Assembly (NCBI GenBank): GCA_964019415.1 | Contig: OZ025885.1 | Location: 5,491,444-5,555,443, forward strand | Source: Ianthella basta | Taxonomy: Eukaryota; Porifera; Demospongiae; Verongiida; Ianthellidae | Length of the DNA stretch: 64,000 nt | Reading direction: 5' to 3' | Part shown: one piece after another, positions 15,931 through 55,255 of the stretch | Numbering within the stretch: the stretch's first letter is position 1 | Layout of the letters: every line of letters starts with the position of its first letter | Program-made: the position numbers and the translations under genes | The notes under the pieces: generated by a model | What the model was told of the DNA's origin: nothing | Seen by the model: only the letters and a program-made list of their open reading frames with translations | The model's database searches: none

Positions 15931-16659
15931 ATGGACAGCAAATTGCTGTGGCTGCCTCTGCTACTGCTGGTGATTGCAGCCACTGCTGGTACAACAAATG
16001 GAGAGTATACATCTACTATGGTCAGAGATATTGTACGCGAAAGGATAATGAAGAACAAATGTTTTGCTTGCTATCCAAAGATGCAGGCATCCTTCTCTCA
16101 GTACGCTGTGATGATGATTTTGCCAGAGCCACCACTTCAAACCTCAAGTGCTATTAAACTCTTTCCAGATCCTCACAAAGTGAGCAACGTCAACAATGAG
16201 TACGTAGTGTCTCCAAGGAGTGACATTGCTGTCAATTACCTGGTGTCTCGCAGTTTTAACTTTTATGATGGGATGGGACGAAAACAAGTTCGCAATGCAG
16301 AGCCTGAGCTTATGAAGCGCATGGGCAGTCTTCTGTTCAATTGGTGGAAGAAATTTCCAAAAGAGAAACAGTATCCTACTATTCTTCTTTACACAAAGCA
16401 GACGCCCTGTTCCAGTTGCACTCGACAGATCATCCAGTACAGAAATAATAAGAATAAATATCCGTTTATTCTTGCCTGGACAGATGAGATTGGTTATAGC
16501 AGGAAGGACTATAACCGAAATAACAACAACCGCCAGCTTATGAGTAAAGCGGGGATCTACGTTGTACAAGTGGATGAACCAGCCAATTATGGTAATATTC
16601 AGGCGGGTTGCAAGAACTATTGGAATACAGCAACCTATGGAACAAGAATAGATGTGTAG
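15931..16659 (+). CDS. Secreted AID/APOBEC-like deaminase paralog with His-to-Asn at the zinc site
   Basis: 242 aa in one exon. Signal peptide 1-24 (LLWLPLLLLVIAATAG). The strand SQYAVMMILP (56-65) matches QYAVLxLLP of the other paralogs. NYLVSR (102-107) aligns with the NYAVAR segment. The catalytic motif reads N122-A123-E124 (codon AAT at 16294) where all intact relatives have H-[AT]-E. The second motif, T158-P159-C160-x2-C163 inside LLYTKQTPCSSC, is intact. One of three zinc ligands is therefore replaced, so it is probably inactive as a classical deaminase, although a binding or altered-metal role is possible. It lacks the C-terminal QCxEDD module and is closest in layout to the gene at 42927-43559. 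An AG precedes the ATG directly (TATAG|ATG), suggesting a 5' UTR exon upstream. Most likely SNAD-type; another secreted deaminase-fold family is the alternative. Confidence 0.8.
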   Translation: MDSKLLWLPLLLLVIAATAGTTNGEYTSTMVRDIVRERIMKNKCFACYPKMQASFSQYAVMMILPEPPLQTSSAIKLFPDPHKVSNVNNEYVVSPRSDIAVNYLVSRSFNFYDGMGRKQVRNAEPELMKRMGSLLFNWWKKFPKEKQYPTILLYTKQTPCSSCTRQIIQYRNNKNKYPFILAWTDEIGYSRKDYNRNNNNRQLMSKAGIYVVQVDEPANYGNIQAGCKNYWNTATYGTRIDV

Positions 16660-17049
16660 ACCAATGGAACACCTGCAAACAGCAACTACTACGTGGAGCA
16701 GATTTAGGTCATAGTTTGTATACATTACTTATGTCATATGTAGCTTCACCATTTGATTAGCTCATAATTACAAACAGCATTGAAGCTGTAAGTCATAGCA
16801 CTAGAGGACTGTGTAGGCTGCTCCAGTGTCAAATTTATGCAGGCTTATATTGGCAATACTTGTGTGATTGCGAAGTGCAGAGGTGATTGCTCCACACGCA
16901 TGCTTTAGCACTGTATTGTACCAATTAAAGCTTCTTCTAGAATGCATGAGTCACTGCATTCAAAATATACCACATGAAAGACCTACTAGCTATTGTATTG
17001 ACAGAATTTCTGTCCTGATTCCTACTACTACTACTACTACTACACACAC

Positions 17050-17326
17050 ACACACGCACACATGTGTGCTCACCCAGCATATTCTGAATGCATGGTGAGT
17101 GGTGTAATTCCGAATATATGGACTTGGTATTAACCTAAACAATTTGTTAGCTGGGAGTAAAAATAGGACTCCATACTGACTTCGACCCTCTTCATGGAAG
17201 GTCTAAAATGGCATGACCATACATACTCACCACGATACTGTTGATTTCTTGATCATTGTACGCTCCTTCGGTGACGATGGCTGTTAGTGCAACCAGCAAC
17301 CATGCACATAGCAACTTATTCATTAT
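17050..17326 (-). pseudogene. Deaminase relic, N-terminal half only (unit 1)
   Basis: Reading down from 17326, an ATG opens a clear family signal peptide and first helix (MNKLLCAWLLVALTAIVTEG, then AYNDQEINSIV). After a frame break, EGRSQYGVLFLLPANK and RLIPSPYIRN follow, aligning with EGHTQYGVLMLLP and QLIPTPGT of the gene at 54578-55255. The sequence then dissolves into CA and TAC microsatellite before the HxE region. No catalytic half is found nearby. A GTGAGT directly after EINSIV could act as a splice donor. Confidence 0.75.
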
Positions 17327-18246
17327 CTTCTGCACAAGAGGAAGTAGCAAACGAGTTTGTTGCATGGTAAGAGCATTTCTCTTGGGCCAATTACCGTGTA
17401 TAAAATATTACACTTACTTGCTTTCTGGTACACGATTGGCCGTATATAGATCTGGTTACACAGACTCCCATTAGTCGACAAGCTCAATTTGCTGTGAATA
17501 GTGATATTGTTGACACTGTTGTAGGCCCTTCTTGCAGTAGTATACCATAGGACAGCGCTGAAGTGTGGTACAGGTCACACTATATATACTGTTTGCTCTT
17601 TCCTTGTTACCACGCATGAATACTCTCCCTGAATACAGTTATTGCATAATCCAATGGAGCTGGGAAGACAGTTACTTAATCTCATTTTTGTGTGTTATTA
17701 TGCATGCATGACATCAACAGCAATAAATGTACAGCAAAACACATAGTAATACATCCATACACATTGAGATGTATATGGACTTATATACAACTTATGTGCA
17801 TATTTTTGTATGAATGGTAGAATAGGATATAGGATAGGAAAGCTATATTAATCTGGGGTAGCTGTTGCCCTGTACAGAGGCTACTATTCTAGACACCCAG
17901 TGCAACACAATACATAATATGCATGCAATAATAGTTATCATGCGTGACATTGTACATAATTCATACTGCATGTGTATAGATAAATTGAGTGGGGGTATAT
18001 AAGTACACCTTAAGGCTTCTAATTTTAACAAGTACTAATTGTAGCAAATTTTGTGAACAGTGCAAAACTTGCAAGAATAATAACCACAAAAATTCTTGTA
18101 TATTATGCTAAAAATTCATTCACAAGACCAGCAATATTCTCTCTGACTTACATTGATAGACACAGTTAAGTAACCAAGAGGTTGGGTGCAGTTATACTAT
18201 ATGTTACATATGTAAATTAAAAATTTTGTACTTGCATATTATAATG
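17327..18246. other. Non-coding end of duplication unit 1
   Basis: Duplicated at about 23629-24540. AT-rich with several short runs; no gene recognised. Its last bases (CTTGCATATTATAAT) abut the collagen-like fragment at the unit junction. Confidence 0.5.
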
Positions 18247-19260
18247 ACTTGCACATCCTTGTGAGTCCCACAGGGGGTCATCTAGGTACCATCGAATTTG
18301 ACATGGTCCAGTACTTCCTGATTCGCAGAAGTAATTCTCTCCTATGAATGGAGGTGCAGCTTCGCCAGGATAGGGAACAGCACACGGACAGTTTCGGCCT
18401 TCATTGGCATCTTTTGAATGCCCTGCAGCAAATGTCCAGATGTGGCTTCGCAGATGTCCATATGTTATGGATAGGCCATCTACATAGTAACCATCTACAG
18501 TGGCCTGACCGCTAACGTGATAATCAAGGAACCCTTCCTGTATACCATAATGGTAGCCACGAACTCTACCACAGACCTTGGTATAGGGAAGCATGTGTGT
18601 AGGAAAAGTGACTGAATTACAGCCATTGTCAACACGTGCAGCCCTGCACATACGCTTTGAGGACTGGATGGTGAAAGTCAGATTCTCAGGACACGTTTGC
18701 AGCGGGTCTGTCATGTCGATATATGCTACCCGTGTCCAACCTCCAGTGATGTCTCCGCACTTGGTTGTGCTCATCTGGCAGTACACTTGAATAGCCCCTC
18801 CTGTGGCAGTCCTGATCAAGTAGTTCCCAGATGGAGTGGTGGGATCACACTCGTAGATCTCCCTGCATGAGGTAGCCGGGTAGTCTACTGAAGTCCCATT
18901 GCACTGAACCCTTCAGTCACCTTGGAGGTCAGATGCATTGCAGCAATTCAACATGCTTATTTCATCTCTGACCTCCTCCAGAATATCTTCCTTTAGCTGT
19001 TGTTTGCTGTCACATGTCAGTATGCCGGGTGTTCCAGGAAGACCGTCACGCCCATTACGTCCAGGAGGTCCAGCAACACCGTCATTTCCATCATGGCCAT
19101 GTATTCCATCACGCCCTGGCTGTCCGTCTTTGCCGTCTCTCCCTGGCATTCCAGGTGTACAAGACGATATAGCAGCAGGGCAAGTAGTAGCTGCTTCCAT
19201 TCCAATGATAACAGCGGCAGACATGACAGCTGCAAAGAGTTTGCCTGTGAGGGGATTCAT
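18247..19260 (-). pseudogene. Collagen-like/FReD-like paralog 3, nonsense-mutated and 3'-truncated
   Basis: From ATG at 19260 the signal peptide, 14 Gly-X-Y triplets and neck are intact. The first Arg codon of the DRRVQCNG segment is then TGA (18913-18915). The downstream domain stays open and near-identical to copy 1 up to WDSQGCAS, where homology stops at 18247. That stop is the join between the two tandem-duplication units, so the truncation was created by the duplication breakpoint itself. Confidence 0.88.
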
Positions 19261-20307
19261 ATTCTTCTATTTCTTCTATACTCTCTCTGGTCTCTTTTGT
19301 ATATGTATAGGAACTGTGTTCAAGTGCTTGGCTTTCACTTCAAGTCCCCTTAATTGTTAGTTCCTTCAGAGCTGTAAGCTACCAACGAACTTAACTCTAC
19401 TTCTACTGTTCACTACACCCCAATCCAGGGTATGCCTACACTGCACATGCATACTGCACAGTGCCCTTTAACCACAGTGCTGGAATGTGCAGCCATGCAG
19501 TGCCTTCCTGTCAGCGTATATGTAGCAGAACCAACACCATCTGCTATGTATCATCTTGGCATGTGCATTTGCCACCAAATTGGTCATTTGTAGCTGTTGT
19601 TGTACAAACTACAATCTGTACTTGCTTCCTGTGTGTACATGTTGTGTACTTTTGTACATGAACCAGCTACAAGAAATGCAAACTACATGTGTGCAGGTGA
19701 ATAAAATATTTTATTATCATGTTGGAGCGAATAAGGTTAGTTAGGGCTAATGAGGCACTAGCTAGTGATATACTGATACTATTACAATGCCTGAAATCCA
19801 GAGAACTAGAACATTCTCTCTCACACACACACACATATGTACATGCACACAAATGCACACATGTGCAAAGGCACACATATTGTACATACACGTATACATA
19901 CTGAGAGGGAAGATGGGAGTTCATAGGGACTAGACAATGATTACTGAAAATCAATCTCCACAAATTAAAGTGAGCTAGTTTGTCAACTGAATTCCTTCAG
20001 TAACTGACGGCACTATGTCCTCACTCAATCAGTGTTGAATCGAATTGGAAGCATCAGTAATTTGACTGCAGTGAGCTGTTGTGTGTGCAGCTCTGGTTTA
20101 AATGGAGTTAATTAGGGCTATTGTAATCTTGCATTTTGTACACCAACACACGCGGAATACCAACAACAGGTGCACAGGTGCACAAAACGCATCACAACAC
20201 ACACAGAAAACTGAGCATTGCATAAACACAAAGTCATATAAATCATTAAACAATGAAAGGCACAACATCTACTGCATTTATGCACATGCATATACGTATA
20301 CAGAACA
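19261..20307. other. Upstream region of collagen-like copy 3 (duplicate of 13012-14038)
   Basis: Same content as the unit-1 region, with a short extra ATGTGCAAAGGCACACAT-type piece near 19860. No gene seen. Confidence 0.55.
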
Positions 20308-20935
20308 GAAATAAGGACACCTCTCTAATGAGGACAGTGCCTGTTGTCCCAGCTACATAGAGATGTGTACAAACTACCTGTGAAATAAGGACACCTCTCT
20401 AATAAGGACAGTGCCTACTGTCCCAGCTACATAGAGAGATGTGTACAAAACTACCTCTGAAATATGGACACCTCTATAATGAGGACAGTGCCTACTGTCC
20501 CAGCTACGTAGAGATGTGTACAAAACTACCTCTGAAATAAGGACGCCTCTCTAATGAGAACAGTGCCTACTGTCCCAGCTACATAGAGATGTGTACGAGC
20601 TACCTGTGAAATAAGGACAGCTCTCTAATGAGAACAGTGCCTACTGTCCCAGTTGGATAGACATGTACAAAACTACCTGTGAAATAAGGACGCCTCTATA
20701 ATGAGAACAGTGCCTACTGTCCTAGCTGCATAGAGACATGTACAAAACTACCTGTGAAATAAGGACACCTCTATAATGAGAACAGTGCCTACTGTCCTAG
20801 CTGGATAGAGACATGTACAAAACTACCTGTGAAATAGGGACACCTCTCTAATGAGGACAGTACCTACTGTTCCAGCTACATAGAAGCGTGTACAAAATTG
20901 CCTCTGAAATGAGGACACCTTTCTAATAAGGACGC
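20308..20935. repeat. About 75-bp tandem array (unit 2)
   Basis: Duplicate of the array at 14039-14690, with the same copy order, point differences and a small internal deletion (AGTTGGATAGACATG for AGTTGGATAGAGACATG). Confidence 0.9.
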
Positions 20936-21869
20936 CCACTACTTGCTACTGTCTCATACAACTGTCCCAATGGTGTACAGAGTGGAGAAGTTTAGTCATA
21001 ATAATCATATGTTATCCCTCATTATTGGTATAGTGTGCGTATTTTGGATGAATGAATGAACATTCAATAGAGAAACTGCTCATGCCCCTTTGATTTACTC
21101 AAAGCATTGCACGCAATCATGCATGATTGTGATTAAGCATTAGTGCTTGTATTAGTAGGACTGTAACTCAATCACATATAATACCAGTATTAGTGGTTCA
21201 TACATCAATCAACGAGTACAAAATCATTTTATACCAATGAATACTTCATTCATACCATTTCCTAAGCTGATCCCATTCAGTAATTGAGGTCTTAATAGAT
21301 TTATTAGCTATGACTTGATCCTCAATTATGAGCATCTGTCCCTGCTTGTGTATAGCATGTGGAGCTTGTGATTTGAATGGAGTGAATAGGGCTATTATAA
21401 TCTTGCACTGGACACACCAACCCAAACGGACTTGTGGGCTCCGAAAGTGACTAGTGTTATGGTGCTATCTCACCAGGTAACGGTAGGCGGATCATGACTG
21501 TGATGCATAGCACTGTGCATTCAAATGATGGAAACTTATTTGTGGTCAATTATCAGTTACTGAGGGCAGAAATTACACCTACAGTTCTATTGAAAGCTAT
21601 GAATGGTATGAATGGTTTAATGGAGACTGTGTATGGGGAACTGTACAGTACAGTACAGTGTACAGTGTACATGTACACGTACAGTACAATATTACTTATA
21701 CATTTTATGTAATATATATAAAAGTTCTTATAAGTTTGTATAATATAATTGTAGTATACCAGTAATATACAATCATGTGCTTGGCCAATACATGAATACC
21801 ACAGTGTTGCCCCTAATTACACTGGTAATGCCTGCTAATTATTGCCCATCGATGTCACTCACATCACTC
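20936..21869. other. Non-coding spacer (duplicate of 14691-15567)
   Basis: No gene seen; the CTGTACAGTACAGTACAGTG-type expansion near 21640-21690 is specific to this copy. Confidence 0.5.
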
Positions 21870-22136
21870 TCAATCTGAATCAGCTGTATACGTGAACACA
21901 GCATCGGCACGTGCACTATAGGGTAAGGACGTCATACCTTTGTACAGGCACCAGGCAATCTTCCATTGCACAGCACAACTCACAGGGAACAAGGCAGCTA
22001 TAAAGCTCTTGACAGTCAGCTCTGCAGTCACCCTTGATCCCAGAACAGGTACAAGAGCGCTGACAAAAGAACCTATGAAGGTGATTGCAAGAGATAGCAA
22101 GGCTTGACAAACAGACAGTAATTGTAGCTGGTACAC
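21870..22136 (-). CDS. Small hydrophobic ORF, hypothetical (duplicate)
   Basis: Duplicate of 15568-15834: 88 aa, starts MYQLQLLSVCQALLSLAITF. Same divergent placement upstream of the deaminase-like gene. Function unknown; possibly fortuitous. Confidence 0.28.
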   Translation of the reverse strand: MYQLQLLSVCQALLSLAITFIGSFVSALVPVLGSRVTAELTVKSFIAALFPVSCAVQWKIAWCLYKGMTSLPYSARADAVFTYTADSD

Positions 22137-22232
22137 AATATCACACTGTAGCTGTCCAATGGAATCTTTGTGAATAGAAATTTTACAAATACTGTATACT
22201 TCATATATAATGATATATGTATATTGCTATAG

Positions 22233-22961
22233 ATGGACAGCAAATTGCTGTGGCTGCCTCTGCTACTGCTGGTGATTGCAGCCACTGCTGGTACAACAAA
22301 TGGAGAGTATACATCTACTATGGTCAGAGATATTGTACGCGAAAGGATAATGAAGAACAAATGTTTTGCTTGCTATCCAAAGATGCAGGCATCCTTCTCT
22401 CAGTACGCTGTGATGATGATTTTGCCAGAGCCACCACTTAAAACCTCAAGTGCTATTAAACTCTTTCCAGATCCTCACAAAGTGAGCAACGTCAACAATG
22501 AGTACGTAGTGTCTCCAAGGAGTGACATTGCTGTCAATTACCTGGTGTCTCGCAGTTTTAACTTTTATGATGGGATGGGACAAAAACAAGTTCGCAATGC
22601 AGAGCCTGAGCTTATGAAGCGCATGGGCAGTCTTCTGTTCAATTGGTGGAAGAAATTTCCAAAAGAGAAACAGTATCCTACTATTCTTCTTTACACAAAG
22701 CAGACGCCCTGTTCCAGTTGCACTCGACAGATCATTCAGTACAGAAATAATAAGAATAAATATCCGTTTATTCTTGCCTGGACAGATGAGATTGGTTATA
22801 GCAGGAAGGACTATAACCGAAATAACAACAACCGCCAGCTTATGAGTAAAGCGGGGATCTACGTTGTACAAGTGGATGAACCAGCCAATTATGGTAATAT
22901 TCGGGCGGGTTGCAAGAACTATTGGAATACAGCAACCTATGGAACAAGAATAGATGTGTAG
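22233..22961 (+). CDS. Secreted AID/APOBEC-like deaminase paralog with His-to-Asn (duplicate)
   Basis: 242 aa; tandem twin of 15931-16659. It differs at three residues (Q70K, R117Q, Q217R approximately) and at one silent site that I can see. It keeps the signal peptide, N122-A-E in place of H-x-E, and TPCSSC. That the same Asn is in both copies means the change predates the duplication; it is not a sequencing error in one copy. The complete reading frame in both suggests that the protein is retained despite the lost ligand, or that too little time has passed for decay. Confidence 0.8.
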   Translation: MDSKLLWLPLLLLVIAATAGTTNGEYTSTMVRDIVRERIMKNKCFACYPKMQASFSQYAVMMILPEPPLKTSSAIKLFPDPHKVSNVNNEYVVSPRSDIAVNYLVSRSFNFYDGMGQKQVRNAEPELMKRMGSLLFNWWKKFPKEKQYPTILLYTKQTPCSSCTRQIIQYRNNKNKYPFILAWTDEIGYSRKDYNRNNNNRQLMSKAGIYVVQVDEPANYGNIRAGCKNYWNTATYGTRIDV

Positions 22962-23349
22962 ACCAATGGAACACCTGCAAACAGCAACTACTACGTGGAG
23001 CAGATTTAGGTCATAGTTTGTATACATTACTTATGTCATATGTAGCTTCACCATTTGATTAGCTCATAATTACAAACAGCATTGAAGCTGTAAGTCATAG
23101 CACTAGAGGACTGTGTAGGCTGCTCCAGTGTCAAATTTATGCAGGCTTATATTGGCAATACTTGTGTGATTGCGAAGGGCAGAGGTGATTGCTCCACACG
23201 CATGCTTTAGCACTGTATTGTACCAATTAAAGCTTCTTCTAGAATGCATGAGTCACTGCATTCAAAATATACCACATGAAAGACCTACTAGCTATTGTAT
23301 TGACAGAATTTCTGTCCTGATTCCTACTACTACTACTACTACTACTACA

Positions 23350-23628
23350 CACACACACGCACACATGTGTGCTCACCCAGCATATTCTGAATGCATGGTG
23401 AGTGGTGTAATTCCGAATATATGGACTTGGTATTAACCTAAACAATTTGTTAGCTGGGAGTAAAAATAGGACTCCATACTGACTTCGACCCTCTTCATGG
23501 AAGGTCTAAAATGGCATGACCATACATACTCACCACGATACTGTTGATTTCTTGATCATTGTACGCTCCTTTGGTGACGATTGCTGTTAGTGCAACCAGC
23601 AACCATGCACATAGCAACTTATTCATTA
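23350..23628 (-). pseudogene. Deaminase relic, N-terminal half only (unit 2)
   Basis: Duplicate of the relic at 17050-17326, with TKG for TEG in the signal-peptide end. The same internal frame break and the same collapse into TAC/CA microsatellite are present. Confidence 0.73.
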
Positions 23629-24540
23629 TCTTCTGCACAAGAGGAAGTAGCAAACGAGTTTGTTGCATGGTAAGAGCATTTCTCTTGGGCCAATTACCGT
23701 GTATAAAATATTACACTTACTTGCTTTCTGGTACACGATTGGCCGTATATAGATCTGGTTACACAGACTCCCATTAGTCGACAAGCTCAATTTGCTGTGA
23801 ATAGTGATATTGTTGACACTGTTGTAGGCCCTTCTTGCAGTAGTATACCATAGGACAGCGCTGAAGTGTGGTACAGGTCACACTATATATACTGTTTGCT
23901 CTTTCCTTGTTACCACGCATGAATACTCTCCCTGAATACAGTTATTGCATAATCCAATGGAGCTGGGAAGACAGTTATTTAATCTCATTTTTGTGTGATA
24001 TTATGTATGCATGACATCAACAGAAATAAATGTACAGCAAAATCACATAATATAGTAATACATCCATACACATTGACATGCATAAGGACTTATATACAAC
24101 TTATGTGCATATTTTTGTATGAATGGTAGAATAGGATATAGGATAGGAAAGCTTTATTATTGTGGGAAGCCTGTAGCCATGTACAGAGGCTACTATTCTA
24201 GGCACCCAGTACAACACAATACATAATATGCATACAATAATAGTTATCATGCACAACATTGTATATAATTCATACTGCACGTGTATAGATAAATTGAGTG
24301 GGGGTATATAAGTACACCTTAAGGCTTCTAATTTTAACAGGTGCTAATTATTGTAGAAAATTTTGTGAACAGTGCAAAATTGCAAGAATAATAAACACAA
24401 AATATTCTTGTATATTATGCTAAAATTCATTCACAAGACCAGCAATATTCTCTCTGACTTACATTGATAGACCCAGTTAGGTAACCAAGAGGTTGGGTGC
24501 AGTTATATGTTGCATATGTAAAATTAGAATTTTGCACTTG

Positions 24541-25000: not shown

Positions 25001-25678
25001 TTAACGGTTAAGTATGGTTGAAGGCCAGCGCAGCCGATACCTGTTTGGATGGCGGAAACATGGTACAGAGTCATCCTCCCTGCATTGCTTTGGTTCACCT
25101 GGTTCGTTCACACACATCACAATCATACCAAGCTTCCTCAGACCATTCCTAGTCTTGCAGTTAATCTCGAGATTCATATAGCCATTCACAATGTTTGTTG
25201 AATATGTGACAAAAACTTGCATTTTTGGAAATTTCTGCCAGGCAGCATTAAATGAGTTTATAATGGCTTGAGTGCAACCAGCACAGGGGGTACCTCTGGT
25301 GTACAGGACAACTGCTGGAGGAGTTGTCCATACGTAGTGATTCAGGATATTGAGGAGTTTATCTAGGACCAGCTTCTCTGTGTGCCTACGTCTTCCTGCA
25401 GCATCTGTTGCTTGAGCATCAGGTCTGGCTACGACATAGTTGTTGCCTACCAGCAGATGCCCCACCATGATCCTTGGTGGCTGTGGGTCCAGTTGATCTC
25501 TATTAGTGGGTAGCACCATTAGAACAGCATACTGCCGACCAGGATTCTGCTGGTCCCCATGAAACTGGGAAATGATGGTGTTTGCCACAATCCTTCGAAT
25601 TTCTTCTGCGGTATACACTGCATTGGCAATAGTAGAAATTGCCTGCACTGTAAGCAGCATCCACAGCCACCTGTTCAT
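25001..25678 (-). CDS. Secreted AID/APOBEC-like (SNAD-type) deaminase
   Basis: 225 aa from the Met preceded by CAGGAGAGA, the conserved start context of this cluster; an upstream in-frame Met at 25723 is less likely. Signal peptide 1-20 (LWMLLTVQAISTIANA). RQYAVLMVLP (49-57), VGNNYVVAR (77-85), H99-T-E101, then LYTRGTPCAGC with P131-C132-x2-C135. These are the zinc His, the proton-shuttle Glu and the two zinc Cys of the deaminase fold. The C-terminal part has INCKTRN, VMCVNEP and the QCREDDSVPCFRH module. Expected chemistry is cytidine-to-uridine deamination on single-stranded nucleic acid, outside the cell or in the secretory route; the substrate is not shown. It opens the run of minus-strand paralogs. 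Confidence 0.85.
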   Translation of the reverse strand: MNRWLWMLLTVQAISTIANAVYTAEEIRRIVANTIISQFHGDQQNPGRQYAVLMVLPTNRDQLDPQPPRIMVGHLLVGNNYVVARPDAQATDAAGRRRHTEKLVLDKLLNILNHYVWTTPPAVVLYTRGTPCAGCTQAIINSFNAAWQKFPKMQVFVTYSTNIVNGYMNLEINCKTRNGLRKLGMIVMCVNEPGEPKQCREDDSVPCFRHPNRYRLRWPSTILNR

Positions 25679-26966: not shown

Positions 26967-27340
26967 GGTACACATACGATCCTGAGGTGCATTTGGTTAA
27001 GTGGCATCATCAGGCAGCAACATTTGAATGTATCCATGGATTAGGTGTAGTATAGCGCTGGACATGCTGGTCACATGGTATATTATCATCCTCAATTAAT
27101 GCACTGATTCTGCACATGTTCGGTACTTGCTTCATACTGTTCCCTCAGACATGTTACCTGAAAGGCTCTCATACGGTTTCTGCTGGCACAGTTAACTGTG
27201 GGGGTCATGTAAGGAGTTTGCATGTTTGTGGAATAGACAACAAAGAACTACTCCACCCTCCCCTGGAACTGTTCTTTAAATGGCATCAGTGCAGCAACCA
27301 AATGGCATTCCCCTGATATAAAGGCGAATGCTATGCAATG
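26967..27340 (-). pseudogene. Deaminase relic, C-terminal half with mutated zinc Cys
   Basis: Closely matches the 3' half of the gene at 35928-36683, including its 3' flank (ACACATACGATCCTGAGG). Reading inward, the catalytic motif codes RGMPFGCC where the relatives have RGTPCGGC, so the first zinc Cys is Phe. Small indels break the frame. Homology fades at about 27340, before the HxE region, and no 5' half is present. Confidence 0.75.
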
Positions 27341-28191: not shown

Positions 28192-28824
28192 CTATAGTTC
28201 CTCATGTTGGCCACATGGTTTGGTATCATCTTCTCTGCATTGCTTTGAATTTTCTGGCACACAATAGACTTCTACATCGTAGTTATCTCGCAGATAGTTT
28301 CTGTTCTCACAGTTAATTGAGCGGGTCATATGCCTGTTAACCATATTTGTTGAATAAGCAACAATGAACTGCCTGGACCTGTCTGGATAAAGCTCTTGTC
28401 GCTTATCGGCAATAACATCAGTACAGTAAGGACATGGAGTTCCTCTGGTGTAAAGAAGAACAGCAGGAGGTTCTACACCAAATTTCATTATGTAATTATT
28501 TATCAGAGTCTGGAGGTGGCTGAGCAGTTGTGTCTCTGTGTGTTGTCCAAAGCGGGTCCGAGATACAGCATAGTTGGTGCCTACAGCAACGTCTGCATTG
28601 TATCGATTGCGCATCACTTCCTTTTCATTAGGGTCTAAGACAACATTGTGATCAGCAGGCAGAACCATTAGAACACCGTACTGGCGCTCATCATTTCTTG
28701 GAAAGTTAGAAAACCTCATTGCTAATCCTACCACAATGTCGGATATCTGTGCTTGAGTGTACTGAGCATCCGCAGTGTTGGAAATTAGTGATATTAGCAG
28801 CAGCAGCCATGGACATCTGTTCAT
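28192..28824 (-). CDS. Secreted AID/APOBEC-like (SNAD-type) deaminase
   Basis: 210 aa. The start is preceded by GCAGGAGAGA. Signal peptide 1-20 (PWLLLLISLISNTADA). RQYGVLMVLPADH (47-59), VGTNYAVSR (81-89), H95-T-E97, LLYTRGTPCPYC with P130-C131-x2-C134, FIVAYSTNMVNRHM, INCENRN, then QCREDDTKPCGQH near the end. All catalytic residues are present. It is among the shortest full members, lacking the long insert before NYAV that the 32156, 35928 and 39285 genes carry. Probably an active nucleic-acid cytidine deaminase; substrate unknown. Confidence 0.86.
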   Translation of the reverse strand: MNRCPWLLLLISLISNTADAQYTQAQISDIVVGLAMRFSNFPRNDERQYGVLMVLPADHNVVLDPNEKEVMRNRYNADVAVGTNYAVSRTRFGQHTETQLLSHLQTLINNYIMKFGVEPPAVLLYTRGTPCPYCTDVIADKRQELYPDRSRQFIVAYSTNMVNRHMTRSINCENRNYLRDNYDVEVYCVPENSKQCREDDTKPCGQHEEL

Positions 28825-32155: not shown

Positions 32156-32899
32156 TCAGGCAGCAACACTTGAATGTGCCCATGGACTAGCTGTAGTATA
32201 GCGCTGGTCATGCTGGTCACACGGTACTTGAAAATCATCTTCCATGCACTGACTCTGTCCAGCACTTGCATCATATTGTTCCCTCAGGCATATTACCTGA
32301 ACCTGTGCTTCCCTCATATGGTTTCTGTTCTCACAGTTACCACTGGGAGTCATGTACCTGTTTTGCATGTTTACTGAATAGACAACAACAAACTGATCCA
32401 CCCTGCCCTGGAACTGTTCTCTTGCTGCAATTATGGCATTAGTACAGTCACCACATGGCGTTCCTCTGGTGTAAAGGAGAATACTAGGAAGGCCATTCGG
32501 TCGCACAAGTCGGTTTAACTTATCAAGCATCCCACCCAGTAACGTTTGATCTAGAAGCCGAGTTTCTGTGTGTTGCCCATCAGCAACTCTAGCTATGGCA
32601 TAGTTTATGCCTACGAGAACATTGCCTCCATTTCGTTTGAGATGATCATTAAATGTAATATAGTCACCTCTAGCATCACGCCTCCCTGGAAATGGTATTA
32701 GCCATATACGATCTGGGTTAGCGTGAGTCCGTTTATTGGGTGGAAGCAGCACCAGGACACCGTACTGCCATCCCGGTTGTGCAAATCTCCACATCGGCAT
32801 TGCAAGCTGCAACACAAGTTGATTAATCTCATGAACATCATAGATTCCTTCAACACTTGTAGAGGTTAGTGCCACCACAGCCAGTATCCAAAGCCACAT
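32156..32899 (-). CDS. Secreted AID/APOBEC-like (SNAD-type) deaminase, long-insert subgroup
   Basis: 247 aa. Starts MWLWILAVVALTSTSVEG, a classic signal peptide. WQYGVLVLLPPNKRTH is followed by an insert of about 35 aa (PDRIWLIPFPG, DARGDY, HLKRNGGN), then VGINYAIAR, H110-T-E112, and LLYTRGTPCGDC with P148-C149-x2-C152. The C-terminal SGNCENRN and QCMEDDFQVPCDQH module is present and the tail ends RYTTASPWAHSSVAA. Nearest paralogs are 35928-36683 and 39285-40013. All catalytic positions are intact. Extracellular or secretory-route nucleic-acid deamination is inferred from the family. Confidence 0.86.
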   Translation of the reverse strand: MWLWILAVVALTSTSVEGIYDVHEINQLVLQLAMPMWRFAQPGWQYGVLVLLPPNKRTHANPDRIWLIPFPGRRDARGDYITFNDHLKRNGGNVLVGINYAIARVADGQHTETRLLDQTLLGGMLDKLNRLVRPNGLPSILLYTRGTPCGDCTNAIIAAREQFQGRVDQFVVVYSVNMQNRYMTPSGNCENRNHMREAQVQVICLREQYDASAGQSQCMEDDFQVPCDQHDQRYTTASPWAHSSVAA

Positions 32900-35927: not shown

Positions 35928-36683
35928 TCAGGCAACAACATTTGAACGTATCCATGGATTAGGTGTAGTGTAGCGCTGGACATGCTCCTCACATGGTACA
36001 CTATCGTCCTCAATGCACTGATTCTGCACATGTCCAGCACTTGCATCATACTGTTCCCTCAGACATGTTACCTGAATATTCCTGGCCCTCATACGGTTTC
36101 TGTTCCCACAGTTACTTGTGGGGGTCATTCGGCTATGGCGTGATTGCATGTTTGTGGAATAGACAACAAAGAACTGATCCACCCTCCCATGAAATTGTTG
36201 TCTTGCTGCAATAATGGCATTGGTGCAGCCACCACATGGCGTTCCCCTGGTGTATAGGAGAATGCTAGGCAGGCCACTCGGATGCACTAATCTATATAAT
36301 TTATTCAGCATCCCATTCAGGAACTGGTAGTCTAGAAGCTGTGTTTCCGCGTGTTGTCTATTATTAACTCTAGCTATGGCATAGTTTATGCCTTCAAGAA
36401 GGTTGCCTCCATTTTGTTTCATATGATCATCAAAGGTAACATAATCACCTCTGGCATCGCGGTCCCCTGGAGATGGTATTAGCCATATACGATCTGGGTT
36501 AACATGTGTCCGCTTATTAGGTGGAAGCAGCACCAAGACAGCATACTGCCATCCTACTGGTCGTGCAAATCTCCACATTGGCATTACTTTCTGTATCACG
36601 ATTTGATTAATCTCATGAACATCATAGATTCCTTTCACACTTGTAGAGGTTAGTGCCACCACAGCCAGTATCCAAAGCCACAT
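35928..36683 (-). CDS. Secreted AID/APOBEC-like (SNAD-type) deaminase, long-insert subgroup
   Basis: 251 aa from the Met of MWLWILAVVALTSTSVKG. The ORF is open 10 codons further upstream, but the cluster-conserved start is preferred. WQYAVLVLLPPNKRTH, the DRIWLIPSPG insert, EGINYAIAR, H111-A-E113, and LLYTRGTPCGGC with P149-C150-x2-C153. C-terminal SNCGNRN and QCIEDDSVPCEEH, tail RYTTPNPWIRSNVVA. Very similar to 32156-32899. It is the source-like relative of the relic at 26967-27340. Presumed active secreted deaminase. Confidence 0.86.
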   Translation of the reverse strand: MWLWILAVVALTSTSVKGIYDVHEINQIVIQKVMPMWRFARPVGWQYAVLVLLPPNKRTHVNPDRIWLIPSPGDRDARGDYVTFDDHMKQNGGNLLEGINYAIARVNNRQHAETQLLDYQFLNGMLNKLYRLVHPSGLPSILLYTRGTPCGGCTNAIIAARQQFHGRVDQFFVVYSTNMQSRHSRMTPTSNCGNRNRMRARNIQVTCLREQYDASAGHVQNQCIEDDSVPCEEHVQRYTTPNPWIRSNVVA

Positions 36684-38329: not shown

Positions 38330-38425
38330 ATCGTTCAAAAGATATCTTGAGTACACTCTGTAATAGTCTTTTAGCATTTGTGGCGGGAGACTAAAAAGTT
38401 TAGAGTCTTGTATCAACAAGTGTAT
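38330..38425 (-). pseudogene. Deaminase relic, central fragment
   Basis: Encodes a decayed version of the region between HxE and PCxxC of the 54578-55255 gene: LPPQMLKDYYRVYSRY against LLPEMLNGYYREYSRY. The position of HTE reads QDSK. Only about 95 bp remain, embedded between two dispersed repeats. Confidence 0.65.
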
Positions 38426-39284: not shown

Positions 39285-40013
39285 TTACCAAGGACGTGAC
39301 CTTTTCTTTGGACTTGGGGTAGAAAAGTTCTTGATATGTTCATTACAATTTATTTTATCATTCTCTATGCACTGGTGCTGTCTAGCTCCACCATACTGCT
39401 CAGCCACACACATTACCCGTATGTAAGTGCTCCGCAGACGGTTTCTTTGCAAACAGTTGATGTAGGGGTTCATATAGTCCTGATTATCCCAGTTGAATGA
39501 ATAGGTGATAACAAGCTGATCCATGCTATTGTACATCTTTCGGAATGTAGAGATAATGGCTTCAGTGCAACCTTTACATGGAGTTAATCTGGTGTAAAGG
39601 AGAACCGTAGGCTGAACACCGTATTTGTGAATCAGGTTTAGCATGCGAGGCAGTTCAGAGAGAAGCAGCGTTTCAGTGTGCTGTGATTTGTCCTCACTGA
39701 GACGAGCTACAGCATAGTTCAGGCCTACTAGGACAGTTCCTCCATGTTTTAACAGTCGCTGATCATAATGGGTGTATTCACCTTTATTATCACGAACACC
39801 CGGAGATGGCACTAAATGTATTCCTTCTCTGCCCTGATGCGTCCGTTTACCAGCTGGAAGCAGCAACAAGACAGCATATTGCGATCCATGTTTTGGAAAG
39901 TTCCAAAATGGCATAGCAAGTTCCACCACTATTTTGCGGATCTCATCATCCATGTACAGTCCTTCAGTACTTGTAGATGTTAGCACAACCACCATCAGTA
40001 TCCAAAGCCACAT
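39285..40013 (-). CDS. Secreted AID/APOBEC-like (SNAD-type) deaminase, long-insert subgroup
   Basis: 242 aa from the Met preceded by CAGGAGAGA (an in-frame upstream Met at 40091 is not favoured). Signal peptide MWLWILMVVVLTSTSTEG. SQYAVLLLLPAGKRTH, insert IHLVPSPGVR and KGEYTHYD, VGLNYAVAR, H112-T-E114, then LLYTRLTPCKGC with P145-C146-x2-C149 (Leu replaces Gly before TPC). C-terminal module slightly changed: INCLQRN and QCIENDKINCNEH. Catalytic residues complete. The basic tail PKKRSRPW is unlike its neighbours. Confidence 0.86.
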   Translation of the reverse strand: MWLWILMVVVLTSTSTEGLYMDDEIRKIVVELAMPFWNFPKHGSQYAVLLLLPAGKRTHQGREGIHLVPSPGVRDNKGEYTHYDQRLLKHGGTVLVGLNYAVARLSEDKSQHTETLLLSELPRMLNLIHKYGVQPTVLLYTRLTPCKGCTEAIISTFRKMYNSMDQLVITYSFNWDNQDYMNPYINCLQRNRLRSTYIRVMCVAEQYGGARQHQCIENDKINCNEHIKNFSTPSPKKRSRPW

Positions 40014-42926: not shown

Positions 42927-43559
42927 CTATGGGATTTGAAGAACCCTTACTCCACCTTTCTCAAGGAGCTGTCTGTTAGCTTCATTTTTAGGAATGCTCA
43001 TATATCCAGGAGTGTCGGTGTCCTCTGCATAGGTTACTGCAAAATCTACCATCTGTGGGTTCTGTACCCATTCCCCGACACCATAAAGTATTCCTGCAAT
43101 CTCATGTGTGCAACTTGGGCATGGAGTGAAATGGGTATGTATAAGCACCATTCTAGGTGGGTAGTCATAATGCATAATATAGTTGTTCCAGAGGAATTTT
43201 AGTTTGTGGAGGAGTTGATATTCAGCATGTCCGTTAAACTTCCTTCGTCTATTTGGTTTGGCAACTAAATAGTTCTCAGCTAAATCAATATTCGGCTGAA
43301 CATACACTGCTGGCTGTCTTATAATATTATCTCCCACACGTGGATCTGGGTGTAACATGTTCACAACATCTGTATTTCCATTCTCAAAGTCAGTAGGAGA
43401 TATGAAGACCATGACTGCAAACTGAGCAGCACCTTGGTTGGGAAAATCCTGGAAGGCGTTCTCTAATTGTCGTCCAATGTTTTTGATCTCATCATCTGTG
43501 TAGGCTGCATCATTGGTGGTAGCTGCCGTTAAGGCAACGAGGATCAAGACCTTTATCAT
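42927..43559 (-). CDS. Secreted AID/APOBEC-like (SNAD-type) deaminase, short-tail subgroup
   Basis: 210 aa. Signal peptide 1-18 (MIKVLILVALTAATTNDA). AQFAVMVFISP, HPDPRVGDN, AENYLVAKPN, H111-A-E113, and MVLIHTHFTPCPSC with P146-C147-x2-C150. It lacks the C-terminal QCxEDD module and ends GVRVLQIP. Layout and the DP(R/H) region are closest to the Asn-mutated pair at 15931 and 22233. It is therefore the catalytically intact reference for that subgroup and shows the ancestral residue was His. Confidence 0.84.
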   Translation of the reverse strand: MIKVLILVALTAATTNDAAYTDDEIKNIGRQLENAFQDFPNQGAAQFAVMVFISPTDFENGNTDVVNMLHPDPRVGDNIIRQPAVYVQPNIDLAENYLVAKPNRRRKFNGHAEYQLLHKLKFLWNNYIMHYDYPPRMVLIHTHFTPCPSCTHEIAGILYGVGEWVQNPQMVDFAVTYAEDTDTPGYMSIPKNEANRQLLEKGGVRVLQIP

Positions 43560-47333: not shown

Positions 47334-47381
<48 letters not shown>

Positions 47382-47523
47382 TGTGTGTGTTCCTCCATGC
47401 CTTTGGTCTGTAGCTTGATGCCATCTTGGTGAAGAGAAAGGAGAAACTCGATTCTGTTGTGGAGTTTGGGATTGATGATAAACTGCTTGTGAAGAGGATC
47501 ACAGGTCGGTTAGGGGAAACAAC

Positions 47524-47630
<107 letters not shown>

Positions 47631-48299: not shown

Positions 48300-48790
48300 T
48301 TCAACACATGAATGCTCATTTGTATGCATAATGAAACACTCCATTCACTATTCAGCCTGTTCGAGTAGCCAAACTCTATGAATGCAGCATTGTGTATTCA
48401 GTCACTCAGTGTAGGAGTTGTTTAGCTAGTGCTTACAATGCATAAGCGGAAATCTATTCAGAGGATTGTATAGTGGGTTTTCTTAGAACATCATTGGTTT
48501 GTTGCACTCAAAGAGCTACAAAGCCTCACTCTCTACTTGGGCTTGACTCTCACTCCTCCAACAAAAATCTTGGGTTCTCACTCCAGATCTGGGATTGGGA
48601 ATCCTTGAGCCTCAATGAAGCAGTTATATACAGCAATTACTATAATTATACAGCAACACCAATCCCAGGATTGTAAATTCTCATGCTATATTATTATAGG
48701 ATTGTAGTGCTGCAAGATCCCACTATCACTGTGACATGTCCTCTACTCCCATACGTAGGCATACTTGTTCCTACTCTGCATTTGCACAGC
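48300..48790. repeat. Direct repeat right of the adenylate kinase gene
   Basis: Partner of 45231-45690, same orientation. It begins about 40 bp after the truncated AK2 frame ends. Confidence 0.75.
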
Positions 48791-49369
48791 ATACGTTAAC
48801 AAATAGGTGGTGCATATGTATGGTTCTCAATGTCTCTTTTCAAAAATTGTTATTCCCTCAGACAGCAGCATGTTTCTGGCGCAAATGTTACCACAGACAG
48901 TCAATATAATTATGGTGAGATGCTAGCTACCATATCTCGCCCCTGCATGGAGATCGAACTCTTCGCCTTAATTGGCAGCTATGCATTCAACTCAAGTAGC
49001 TAGCTAGCTTCGTAGCTGCCTGTAGCTGCCCAACTGTTAACATGGCCCTCTGTGGTCACAGGTCAATTATTGTACAACAAACAAAATGCTGTAACTTATA
49101 AAGTTTTGCCTGCATGGAGCACTAACATTCAGTTGGGAGGTGGCTTGCATGTGCTAACTGTTTCAAGTTGAATGACACAGGGACAACCATGAAGAATGCA
49201 TTCTATATACAATCAGCTGCAGCTTTCATCTGTGCCCTTTTTATGTGCATGTGTGGTTGTGTATTTGTGAATAGTGTGGAGTGTGTGTGTGTGCACAAAC
49301 ATGTTTGTATGCTCCTGCAGATTCCTGTACACTCCCATAACTTGACTGTTGTATACAATGCACAGCACA
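48791..49369. other. Non-coding spacer with weak tRNA-like segment
   Basis: On the minus strand near 48940-49000 a GAGTTCGATCTCC box, like a tRNA T-arm/B box, is preceded by a possible anticodon-like arm, suggesting a tRNA-derived SINE remnant. It does not fold convincingly as a tRNA, so no tRNA is called. Confidence 0.3.
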
Positions 49370-50753: not shown

Positions 50754-51544
50754 AGAAGTCAAAGCTTATACATACAGCAATGAATGACGTTAAAACACAT
50801 GAATAGTAGTGGGAAAAGAATATCTTTATAGAGCTAGGACATACAAGCTGTGTATTCTGAGTATAGATATGCACCCAGAAAGACCACCAGCACAAGTTGT
50901 AGTTGTCTCGTCTAATGACTATGGGAAATTCAAGTAAATTCCGAACTAAAATTGTAATACACGAAGCTAGTCTGATGTATATAGCCATTCCACTTTGAGT
51001 GCATTGAATACAATACAATATGTTCTATGGACATGTATGAATGAAGAAATATTGTAAATGCTTTAGTTATCCCCACAGATATACGATTCTACATCAAGGT
51101 CTTCATTCTTCTATGTTCAGGGTACTAACCATCCTTCACATCCATCAGTGCCCCATATTGACATTGATGATCATGAGCCCTAAAACAGCTGTCTGCAGCT
51201 GGCTCTTCCATCTTGGATAGATGACTAAGAGGGAAGGTGATCACAACGGCCGGGGCTCTATCCCCCAGCCTCCCTAATACACCAATGTTGGTGTAGCAGG
51301 CTGGTTGTGCATAATTTCCGATGAATGGGAAATTTTCCTCTCTTCAACAGTAAGTTAATGCTTAATTAACTGGTACACACTGTAGAAGGAGCAGTTTTCA
51401 AACTGAAAGGCATGGCACAATCTTTTCTAATACATATCTACAATACGTAATCAGTTGCATACCAATATTCAATGTGAATGCAATGTTAATGGTTCAGTGA
51501 AGTACGTATACACATGTTCCTGAGGTACTTTAGCTGCTTAGCTA
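50754..51544. other. Non-coding spacer
   Basis: 50815-50900 (GTATTCTGAGTATAGATATG, AAAGACCACCAGCACAAGTT) recurs at 53140-53210, again showing duplicated deaminase-unit flanks. No gene seen. Confidence 0.5.
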
Positions 51545-51948
51545 CACCCTTGGACTAGCTGTAGTGTAGCGCTGGTCGTGCTGTTCACACGCTACATAAT
51601 AATCATCCTCAATGCACTGATACTGTACATGACCAACACCTACAGCATACTGCTCCTTCAGTAATGTAGTGCTTATTATAAGTAGTATAATAATCCATTG
51701 CCGTCTGAATTCAGAGTCCCTGGAATTGGTAGAAGCTGTATTATATAACCTTTACTTGGAAGTAGCCTTAGAACACCATACTGAGTATGGCTTTTGGTCC
51801 AAAATAGCATTGCATGATGCACCACAATACCTTGTGTATCTTGGATTGTGTACCATCTTTCAGTGGCAGTAAGCACAGCCAACAGAGCACCAACAACAAC
51901 ACATACACACTGTAATCCAGATCTCTGTATATGCACAGATGGCAGCAT
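51545..51948 (-). pseudogene. Deaminase relic with the catalytic core deleted
   Basis: The N-terminal part (GWYTIKDIQ-like ERWYTIQDTQGIVVHHAM, TQYGVLRLLP, LLPIPGTLNSDGNG) matches the 54578-55255 gene closely. At TATAATAAGCA (about 51683) the sequence jumps to the C-terminal part (EQYAVGVGHVQYQCIEDD..., ACEQHDQRYTTA). The HxE and PCxxC coding region is cleanly missing and the join shifts the frame. Confidence 0.85.
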
Positions 51949-52734
51949 TAATCATCTTTCAAATTTGAAGCATTTAGGAATACACTGCATATATATATAT
52001 GTAGTACATAGCTAGAGTCAGCCACCAACACTTTAAAACCACTATTATACGTTAATATGTACAGTACGTGTTACTGTTCATTTCATTATACACAATACAG
52101 TGCATGCTCAAGTATAATAATTATTCCTTATTGTACACCTGTTTGTGTTGAAGGTAGTACGGTTTAGAGGCTATGTCTGTTGTAATTGCCAGTCATCTTC
52201 GCCTAGATCCCAGCAATCTTAAATATTAAATATTATCTTAAGATGGTGACAAGAGTGACGCCCTGCCAAGTGTACCATCAGAATTCTACACATCAATGTC
52301 TCTACCTATCTCAAGTATAAGCTACCATTAGGCATACATGTGTTGTTGCTGTACACATATATAAGTACAGCATGCATGCAGTGTGAGCATGCACCCATAG
52401 CATGAATGCTTTCATTATAAAAGGAACTATTTATTCGAGAATAATTTTCTGGAAACTGACATGTTTGTGTTCATAGACCCTTGGCCTTCATGTTTCAGCC
52501 CATTGTTTGATATATACCAACAGCCCTTCTATGCTATATATGTACGTAATATATATCAAGTTCTTAAAGGGAACAAAATACAAATTCCGCACACAGTCCT
52601 AAAACCACACTTAGTTGTTCTAAAATGGTATATTTTATTTCACACACTATGCATACTACCTAAATGAATACCTTACAATGAGACACATAAACTTTGATGA
52701 TGATGTACATGTATTTCTGAGTTCCATAATGAAT
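51949..52734. other. Upstream region of the core-deleted relic; paralog of 56807-60350 flanks
   Basis: GCTAGAGTCAGCCACCAACA (near 52012) recurs at 56812, and TGTACACCTGTTTGTGTTGA (near 52132) recurs at 60097. The sequence between the two landmarks here is about 100 bp (ending ATAATAATTATTCCTTATTG), while in the other copy it is interrupted by the retrotransposon cluster. No gene. Confidence 0.6.
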
Positions 52735-52862
52735 TAATTAAGATGAGGCATGACATTGCACCGCTAGAATCAGCCATGATTTGGAACGCACTGTGGTGTG
52801 TTATCGTTGTAGTACATTGATTTGCTTTGATATATCCATTTTCATGTTTCGTTGTGCACGAA
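52735..52862 (-). pseudogene. Deaminase relic, extreme C-terminus
   Basis: Homologous to the 3' end of the partial gene at 60387-60733 (CACCGCTAGAATCAGCCATG against CACTGTTAGAATCAGCCATC). The decoded piece retains a worn NDNTPQCVPNHG end resembling the QCxEDDxxxCxxH module. Homology stops where the next Helitron-like element begins. Confidence 0.55.
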
Positions 52863-52865
52863 CTC

Positions 52866-53125
52866 CTCCTTCAATTTTTCACCTATCTTCGCCAAATGTG
52901 GAAGAGTATATCACGGCAATACGGGGGGTGACCTAAGGTGGTTAGCGCCTTCGACGCTGGACTCCTTTGGACGAAATGGATTAACATAAGTAAATTCTGT
53001 ACGTACGGAGTTTACGGAGCGAGTCTACGGAATGCTTCCAATTAAATGGACGCTTCTGATTGGCTAATGGCTCTAATTTCAAACAATATGCTGGGAACCC
53101 ACCCGAAGGGCGAGCATTCAGCTAG
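52866..53125 (+). mobile_element. Helitron-like element, family 2, copy 1
   Basis: The 3' end has hairpin CCCACCCGAAGGGCGAG, then CATTCAG-type spacer and CTAG, followed by T. About 180 bp are shared, inverted, with 54002-54180. The 5' TC end is uncertain (a TCCTCCTTCAATTTTTC at 52864 is a candidate). An internal GGTTAGCGCCTTCGACGCTG stretch near 52940 looks tRNA-A-box-like. Confidence 0.65.
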
Positions 53126-54001
53126 TTTTTATAAAGGACATATAAGCTGTGCAGTATGTGCATTCTGAGTATAAATATATACACACAGAAAGACCACCAG
53201 CACAAGTTGCAGGGTACGTGTAGTTATATGGTCTAATGGCTATGGGACACAGTATGACCTACAGACATATGTGGGTGCAGAAACTATTAATAATAATGCT
53301 TTAGTTAGGAATATAATCATACAGCAAGATCTTCTTTATAATAATATTATTATATTTATGTGAATTATAAGGTGAACTTATGACTATACCAAAATTGGTG
53401 CAGTATACATAGACATTGCTCTTTAGTCAGAGCATCCTCCAACTCTTAGCATGGTTCAAAGATTCACTACATTAAATTGGCTCATGAACTCTAGGTGGAC
53501 ATGTATACAAATGCTCTGTTGATATTTCCTGCATGTAGTGGCCAATGGTCTCTCAATTAGAATATCCACATATTAAACATTAATGTTGTATGGCAATACT
53601 TAATTCCCATTGTTACTCAGTCCACCGGGTCATAAGGTGATGTGTACTCATTGGTATTCAGTTGGTATTTAGTTGCTCTGTGGTTTTGATGGATATAAAT
53701 AATTAATGATTATAGTTATTGATTTTCAGGGAATAGATGAAAGCATTTGCTTGGAATGCATTCCGAGCAAGCAAATCGTGCAGTTCAACTTGAGGAGCAA
53801 TGGTCACCAAACAAGAGGCAGGTTGGAAACTATCAATGGTAATGAATATCATTATAAATACCGTTGTACTGTATGCACACATGTGGAAAACATGATGCAT
53901 GGCTAACAGCAAACCATGGGTGCAGAAATTATGTCAGGTCCAATCACCACTTGCAGCAGCTAATAATACATCCAAGCTTTTGAATGAGTGGATTCTTATA
54001 A
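53126..54001. other. Non-coding spacer
   Basis: Begins with a block shared with 50815-50900. A short inverted pair (GCTTGGAATGCATTCCGAGC) is at about 53750. No gene supported. Confidence 0.5.
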
Positions 54002-54180
54002 CTAGCTGAATGCCCGCCCTTCGGGTGGGTTCCCAGCATATCGTTTGAAAGTTGAGCGTTTAACCAATCAGAAATGCCCATTTAATTGGGAGCATTCCGT
54101 AGACTCGTTCCGTAAAACTCCGTGCGCATAGAACTTATTTATGTTAATCCATTTCGTCTAAAGGAATCTGCTGGCTGCCT
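54002..54180 (-). mobile_element. Helitron-like element, family 2, copy 2 (5'-truncated)
   Basis: Reverse complement ends ...GGGAACCCACCCGAAGGGCG, then GGCATTCAGCTAG, then T. Matches 52966-53125 with point changes; it lacks the 5' part. Confidence 0.7.
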
Positions 54181-54577
54181 TCACATAAAGCCAATTATGT
54201 AACTCAACTATTTGCATTTGCATAGCATACACTCTTCCCAAGCATGCTCTGTAGCCATCAGTGGTATGTGTCTAGTCAAGAGGATGCATGCACAATTACG
54301 TGTGTATAAATACGTATACATGACCAAAATACTGGCAATTATTTGAAAGGTCAAAACGTGTACATGCAATCAAGAGAATCTCAGTAAGCTCAAAATCTTA
54401 CAGGGAATTCTATTACAAATTGAACACAGTCATGCAGAATATAATAATGCGCCTAGTTGCATGTCCAAAAATGGAGTTTTGCACGCCATACATTAGATGG
54501 AGGCATAATTAACAATCTAGTGAGTACATCATCTTAATCATGTGTGAAGTGTGGTCCAGAAACGCCTGCTGCTGATT

Positions 54578-55255
54578 CTACCAGCCAAATTCTTTTCTAT
54601 GCAAGTTGCACTCTACCTTGTAATCGTCTTCAATGCACTGCTTCTTTCTATACTGCTCCTTAACACAAACTACTCCTATTTTGCGGTGCCGCAGATATTT
54701 CCTATTCTCGCAATTAATTGTAAGGTTCTGATATCTATTAACCATGTTTGTGGTATAAGCAACAACAAACTGGCCTACAGGGTAGATTTTATACCCAGCA
54801 TGATTTATAGCTCTAGTACAGTCAGTACATGGAGTTCCTCTGGTGTACAAAAGAACGGCTGGAGGATATCTTGAGTATTCTCTGTAATAGCCATTTAGCA
54901 TTTCTGGCAGGAGACGAAGAAGTTGTGTCTCTGTATGTTTATCTCCTCTTTCACTGGTCCTGGCCGCAGCGTAATTGAAGCCTACAATTGTATCTCTTGT
55001 AATGTTCTGCTTATTATAAGTAGTATATCCATTGCCATGCGAATTCAGAGTCCCTGGAGTTGGTATGAGCTGTATTTTCCCTGCGCCTGGAAGCAGCATT
55101 AGGACACCATATTGAGTATGGCCTTCTCTTCGAAAGGTCCAAAATGGCATTGCATGGTGCACCACAATACTTTGAATATCTTTGATTGTGTACCATCCTT
55201 CAGTGCTGACAGCAGTAAGAACAGCCAACAGTAGCACCGGCAACCACTTGCTCAT
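54578..55255 (-). CDS. Secreted AID/APOBEC-like (SNAD-type) deaminase
   Basis: 225 aa from the Met in CAGGAGAGAATGAGC context. Signal peptide 1-20 (WLPVLLLAVLTAVSTEG). TQYGVLMLLPGAG (48-60), QLIPTPGTLN (62-71), VGFNYAAAR (91-99), H107-T-E109, and LLYTRGTPCTDC with P142-C143-x2-C146. C-terminal INCENRK, VVCVKEQ and QCIEDDYKVECNLH. All catalytic and module residues are present. It is the intact relative of relics at 17050, 23350, 38330 and 51545, so this subgroup has been copied and lost repeatedly. Presumed active; substrate unknown. Confidence 0.87.
   Translation of the reverse strand: MSKWLPVLLLAVLTAVSTEGWYTIKDIQSIVVHHAMPFWTFRREGHTQYGVLMLLPGAGKIQLIPTPGTLNSHGNGYTTYNKQNITRDTIVGFNYAAARTSERGDKHTETQLLRLLPEMLNGYYREYSRYPPAVLLYTRGTPCTDCTRAINHAGYKIYPVGQFVVAYTTNMVNRYQNLTINCENRKYLRHRKIGVVCVKEQYRKKQCIEDDYKVECNLHRKEFGW

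Follow-up and report, generated by a model that had tools for sequence, protein, structure and literature searches.

A stretch of 64,000 nucleotides from the genome of the sponge Ianthella basta (assembly GCA_964019415.1, contig OZ025885.1, positions 5,491,444 to 5,555,443; referred to as the window and numbered from its first letter) holds nine of the ten intact genes of a cluster whose products are very probably secreted proteins with a deaminase fold. The cluster is a tandemly expanded family in which copies have decayed. An earlier note, made from the letters of the window, had listed nine open reading frames (ORFs) as intact genes for secreted AID/APOBEC-like deaminases. All nine (D1 to D9 by position) are real and lie where it placed them, two on the forward and seven on the reverse strand, but the list is incomplete and the cluster larger than reported.

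The gene cluster and its conserved motifs

Relatives were sought by genome searches with D5, D8, D1 and D10; the window, its flanks and two other regions were searched with the nine proteins by tblastn. This yielded 12 intact genes, namely the nine in the window, a tenth member of the cluster (D10) just to the right of it, and a pair (E1 and E2) on contig C5; for large families, counts from the genome search are lower bounds, i.e. at least 12 intact genes. The two forward-strand genes are D1 (15931..16659, 242 amino acids) and D2 (22233..22961), both with NAE at the putative zinc site, followed in D1 by TPCSSC. On the reverse strand lie D3 (25001..25678; 225 residues from its ATG, within a GTG-started ORF extending to 25723; HTE and TPCAGC), D4 (28192..28824; 210 residues; HTE and TPCPYC), D5 (32156..32899; 247 residues; HTE and TPCGDC) and D6 (35928..36683; 251 residues from the second Met, ORF to 36713; HAE and TPCGGC). 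These are followed by D7 (39285..40013; 242 residues from its ATG, ORF to 40091; HTE and TPCKGC), D8 (42927..43559; 210 residues; HAE and TPCPSC) and D9 (54578..55255; 225 residues from its ATG, ORF to 55294; HTE and TPCTDC). D10 lies at 65407-66072 in the numbering of the window (L034:1392-2054) and reads HTE and TPCTGC, while E1 and E2 (L037:4463-7445) read HAE and TPCxxC. Four conserved C-terminal cysteines are found in seven of the 12 proteins (D3-D7, D9 and D10); D1 and D2 have one, and D8, E1 and E2 none. The C5 pair is distinguished by a Gly/Pro/Arg-rich C-terminal tail with RPGTGG-type repeats, longer in E2, and both proteins carry an excess of Lys/Arg (45 and 42 residues, compared to 22 and 21 Asp/Glu). 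A search with the C-terminal part of E2 including this tail gave weak hits on contigs C2, C4, C8, C11 and C15.

PCxxC is kept in all 12 intact genes and takes the form TPCxxC in the nine of the window, as the earlier note had claimed. HxE occurs as HTE or HAE in seven of these nine and in 10 of the 12 overall, with 29-35 residues between its Glu and the Pro of PCxxC. The Asn reported in place of His in two genes is that of D1 and D2, which, with NxE, individually fail the HxE feature of the zinc deaminase site. The description of the nine genes as intact thus holds for their reading frames, which are all open, but not for the zinc-binding His of these two. The proposed NYxV segment is likewise only partly conserved: NY is present in all nine, but the full NYxV in six, with NYAI in D5 and D6 and NYAA in D9. 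The putative zinc site of D5 comprises His110, Cys149 and Cys152.

The signal peptide read in the nine ORFs is predicted for all 12 proteins by simple rules, from a hydrophobic N-terminal stretch and from Ala or Gly at position -1 of one aligned site, ahead of a conserved Tyr. In every protein a 10-residue stretch within the first 25 residues is more hydrophobic than any starting after residue 30, with a narrow margin in D3 (1.87 versus 1.68).

Profile searches and the predicted fold

Homology among the nine window proteins is far beyond chance, since every pairwise BLASTP match has an E-value of at most 1e-5. In Pfam, a model of the deaminase superfamily is the top match for 11 of the 12 proteins, but no cut-off is reached. 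The best matches are SNAD1 for E1 (E = 5.8e-5) and D8 (6.3e-4), NAD1 for D7 (1.2e-4) and for D1 and D2 (0.0015 each), XOO_2897-deam for D4 (2.8e-4) and D9 (0.036), Toxin-deaminase for D3 (3.6e-4), dCMP_cyt_deam_1 for D6 (0.0015) and D5 (0.007), and SNAD4 for E2 (0.029), with no match at E<=1 for D10. Because a deaminase model came out on top in 11 of 12 cases among 24,736 Pfam models, the result is not due to chance; non-deaminase chance matches appear at E-values of 0.08-0.42. As a control, one ORF, a fragment of the probable dCMP deaminase of the same genome (contig C19), matched dCMP_cyt_deam_1 at 5.8e-14 (52.3 bits, the cut-off being 25). It also matches SNAD4 (E = 0.0016), and SNAD4 matches near 1e-3 therefore do not discriminate. 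Other searches gave less: a PDB profile search returned 21 matches, all to deaminases and none significant (best 0.1), NCBIfam gave six weak unrelated matches over the 12 members (best E 0.0095) and no deaminase match, and Rfam gave no match in the window. Genome-wide, of the SNAD models, PF18750 had no match above its cut-off and PF18744 none at E<=10, in searches that missed the cluster itself (C18) altogether. Outside the family, the search for a classic AID/APOBEC elsewhere in the genome gave one APOBEC_N match on contig C21 (E 0.006) with two internal stops, the middle of which showed nothing deaminase-like in the three forward frames by eye.

The sub-threshold matches of D3 and D4 to Toxin-deaminase and XOO_2897-deam would fit toxin-like proteins, derived from bacterial polymorphic-toxin deaminases, that get into bacteria or other competitors and poison them, and the available parts of two articles do report proposals that the deaminases of animals arose from toxins or effectors of bacteria (PMC8201067, PMC12419801). 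The family shares its superfamily with the bacterial toxin deaminases (Toxin-deaminase, XOO_2897-deam, MafB19-deam), but its members belong to an animal genome and encode a signal peptide, and no toxin trafficking domain was matched by Pfam in any of the 12 proteins. Moreover, no relatives were found in GTDB genome contigs (with A2 and A4), viral contigs (with A1) or plasmids (with D8 only), in searches that reach mostly near relatives and have phages and metagenomes outside their scope; a bacterial or viral origin traced through close relatives was accordingly set aside. On balance, a role as toxins is rather improbable.

The deaminase fold named in the earlier note is borne out by AlphaFold2 (AF2) models of two of the 12 proteins, D5 and D1. 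For each model, the best 50 VIA-align matches are all deaminase-superfamily entries by title, with APOBEC3 first, and in both the predicted secondary structure places HxE and PCxxC at the starts of core helices. With the D5 model, APOBEC/AID entries lead and make up 48 of the 50 best VIA-align matches, where identity is 8-16% among the structural alignments listed; in Foldseek, the 24 matches at E<=0.001 are all to APOBEC/AID entries. An artefact or a chance motif is ruled out by the strong homology together with the fold evidence.

This ranking also bears on the view that the proteins, once secreted, deaminate free nucleosides, nucleotides or bases and serve feeding or salvage from filtered bacteria, not the editing of nucleic acids. 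Superfamily fold and zinc motif are indeed shared with dCMP deaminase, RibD and cytosine deaminase, but the genome has its separate probable dCMP deaminase on C19, and the family proteins stay below the dCMP cut-off. The lead of APOBEC/AID entries among the matches of the D5 model speaks against salvage, and paralogue divergence as strong as that described below would be unusual in a housekeeping enzyme, which makes this an unlikely explanation.

Gene structure and duplication history

The genes had been called single-exon, which holds for their coding part, while an intron in the 5′ untranslated region (5′-UTR) is possible. A YAG trinucleotide lies 0-19 nucleotides ahead of the ATG in all 12 genes (and at 49.6% of the 3355 ATGs of the window), with D3, D4, D5, D7 and D9 reading YAG-GAGAGA-ATG. 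The nearest YAG is exactly 6 nucleotides from the ATG in 7/12 genes compared to 3.3% of window ATGs, and YAG is preceded by at least 11 pyrimidines in 20 positions in 9/12 compared to 19.6%, although such counts are not independent because the genes are paralogues. Donor-like sites 110-310 nucleotides upstream were found in 10 of the 11 genes scored (none in D4; D2 unscored), compared to 62% of random places, and E1 and E2 have the donor-like AAGTGAGT in common, 205 and 213 nucleotides upstream. A spread of the family by retrogenes may be disfavoured by these patterns, at most weakly.

Strong divergence between neighbours, another claim of the earlier note, applies to most pairs (about 24-47% identity) but not to D1 and D2, with 98.8% amino acid identity, or to D5 and D6, with 75%. 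In a tree of the 12 proteins, rooted at the midpoint and subject to a program warning of meeting long branches, D1, D2, D8, E1 and E2 separate from D3-D7, D9 and D10 (support 100/99), and D8 groups with the C5 pair (88/84). Nonsynonymous (dN) and synonymous (dS) divergence was estimated with an own NG86 script. D5 and D6 differ by a dS of 0.40 and a dN of 0.145 (ratio 0.36); the ratio is 0.57 for D5/D7, 0.46 for D6/D7 and 0.77 for E1/E2, and dS exceeds 1.4 or is not computable for all remaining pairs except D1/D2. The highest densities of amino acid changes between D5 and D6 are those of the HxE loop (4/7), beta5 (4/7), helix 4 (5/13) and helix 1 (7/20), with none in the 11 positions of the strand leading into PC; these counts are small and the segment limits were set by the authors from the AF2 secondary structure.

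D1 and D2 belong to two tandem blocks of about 6.3 kb (12019..24461; about 12.0-18.1 and 18.2-24.5 kb). Each block holds one of these two genes together with a copy of a collagen-like gene and a single decayed deaminase copy, so that D2 results from segmental duplication. Within the same aligned block, 4 of 729 coding sites differ between them compared to 35 of 2040 flank sites (Fisher p=0.026); against all aligned flanks including a minisatellite (114/5393), p is 0.002. That the coding parts have diverged less than their flanks, and that the frames of D1 and D2 (2/9) remain open after loss of the zinc His, is what would be expected if the family consisted largely of non-enzymatic secreted proteins that bind nucleic acid or act as decoys on a deaminase scaffold. 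However, HxE is kept in 10/12 proteins and PCxxC in 12/12, and the dN/dS of 0.79 for D1/D2 is uninformative because the changes are too few (3 nonsynonymous and 1 synonymous), which leaves this alternative quite improbable.

The expansion proposed in the earlier note is supported as a tandem one. Inside the window, the nine ORFs are accompanied by five clear decayed copies and one weak one, these six all on the reverse strand. The copy at 17080..17335 retains only an N-terminal part, with a stop and a frame change, and that at 23383..23638 is its duplicate. At 27013..27313 lies a D5/D6-like C-terminal part with a stop and a frame change, at 51545..51885 are N- and C-terminal pieces without the middle, and at 60390..60734 is a 5′-truncated copy close to D10, in which similarity begins past the HxE position. 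A possible remnant at 38342..38407 is a weak match of 22 amino acids (E about 0.008-0.009).

Several neighbouring features were recorded as well. Collagen-like tandem genes on the reverse strand adjoin D1 and D2 (6998-8158, 11874-12986 and 18217-18819); the first ORF matches a Collagen domain (E 3.2e-9) and, below threshold, a fibrillar-collagen C-terminal model, whereas the N-terminus of the other two is apparently altered or shortened. The minisatellite of the duplicated block has units of about 75 bp (14094-14767 and 20362-21033), and its copy arrangement differs between the blocks. Three ORFs that by eye resemble retroelement remnants (57770-58444, 59211-60110 and L034:211-855; two near-identical, the third related) sit near the truncated copy at 60390 and D10, the first with no Pfam match at E<=1. 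Elsewhere in the genome, peptidase C1-like proteins on contig C6 (L040 and L042) have GEIGDS and GETGSY in place of the CGSCW active-site stretch and are possible non-peptidase paralogues; the motif of silicatein, a sponge marker, was not found in 30 loci scanned, of 45 peptidase-C1 matches in the genome. Contig C96 (21,233 bases) is mitochondrial, with COX1 (Pfam) readable with TGA as Trp, an atp9 ORF recognized by eye, and 17 tRNA predictions in 19,000 bases examined, of which two are labelled SeC under a bacterial-code run. A mitochondrial atp9, this code and numerous tRNAs together are typical of demosponges, and the contig suggests such a host.

Relation to known deaminases and possible function

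The primary description of the SNADs is reportedly that of Krishnan et al. from 2018. According to the available parts of two later articles, SNADs are secreted proteins whose activity is unknown, SNAD4 is known from sponges, and infection of carp raises the expression of some SNAD1 genes and lowers that of others (PMC11004436, PMC8201067); carp snad1 expression is also the subject of PMC13402138. As of 2024, there was no knowledge of the catalytic activity or substrate of SNADs, as stated in the part of PMC11004436 available. The available parts of PMC13428168, PMC13337447 and PMC12419801 contain nothing on sponge SNADs, and no published account of such a sponge cluster was found among titles and openings of abstracts, subscription journals being mostly outside coverage.

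The sponge family resembles SNADs in its signal-peptide-like N-terminus, its gene expansion, the zinc-deaminase motif in 10/12 proteins, SNAD1 as the model that D8 and E1 match best in Pfam, though below threshold, the presence in 7/12 of the C-terminal cysteine cluster described as characteristic of SNADs, and the sponge host, in which SNAD4 is placed by the papers. It differs in that five proteins are without the cysteine cluster and D1 and D2 without the zinc His. In addition, all 12 score below the Pfam cut-offs of the SNAD and APOBEC models, which counts against filing the family under SNADs. Judged by sequence, membership is plausible; the proteins look like SNADs and may work like them, but the family is not filed as such. 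Towards the AID/APOBEC proteins (APOBEC3 and AID), the likeness lies in the best solved-structure matches and in the beta4-helix-beta5 order of the predicted models, and the difference in the secretion signal of the family, the missing SWS before PCxxC and the low identity in the D5 alignments.

The reading we prefer is that of secreted zinc deaminases that act on foreign single-stranded nucleic acid in an immune role, a mechanism that as a whole we regard as tentative, at slightly under an even chance. The precursor would consist of a signal peptide of about 18-26 amino acids and one deaminase domain, and the four C-terminal cysteines, where present, would likely form disulfides outside the cell. 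After release into the mesohyl, vesicles or phagosomes, the proteins would deaminate the cytosines of foreign nucleic acid that is single-stranded, with the His and two Cys holding zinc and the Glu moving a proton. What the sequence establishes is the family itself, with its motif, predicted fold, tandem duplication and decay; secretion, zinc binding, activity, substrate and immune role are inferred. Two observations weigh against the mutagenic part of this mechanism. The SWS motif, tied to polynucleotide deamination in classic AID/APOBECs in the part of PMC8201067 available, is absent before PCxxC in all 12 aligned proteins, and two of the nine window genes have lost the zinc His. As the latter is absent from D1 and D2, catalysis is probably lost or changed in these two. 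A mutagenic immune role of the family, drawn by analogy, nevertheless remains the best guess.

Inactive ADAT3 partners ADAT2. By analogy, the His-less D1 and D2 could be partners, sensors or decoys for their zinc-competent paralogues in a two-part secreted editing system, an arrangement that we consider highly improbable. If it were true, sponges would have diversified extracellular nucleic-acid deaminases directed against microbes and viruses. With a recent His-less duplicate pair next to eight paralogues that have the His, the cluster of ten intact genes offers natural pairs to compare in an early-branching animal lineage, and such a comparison would bear on the age and function of the secreted deaminase branch.

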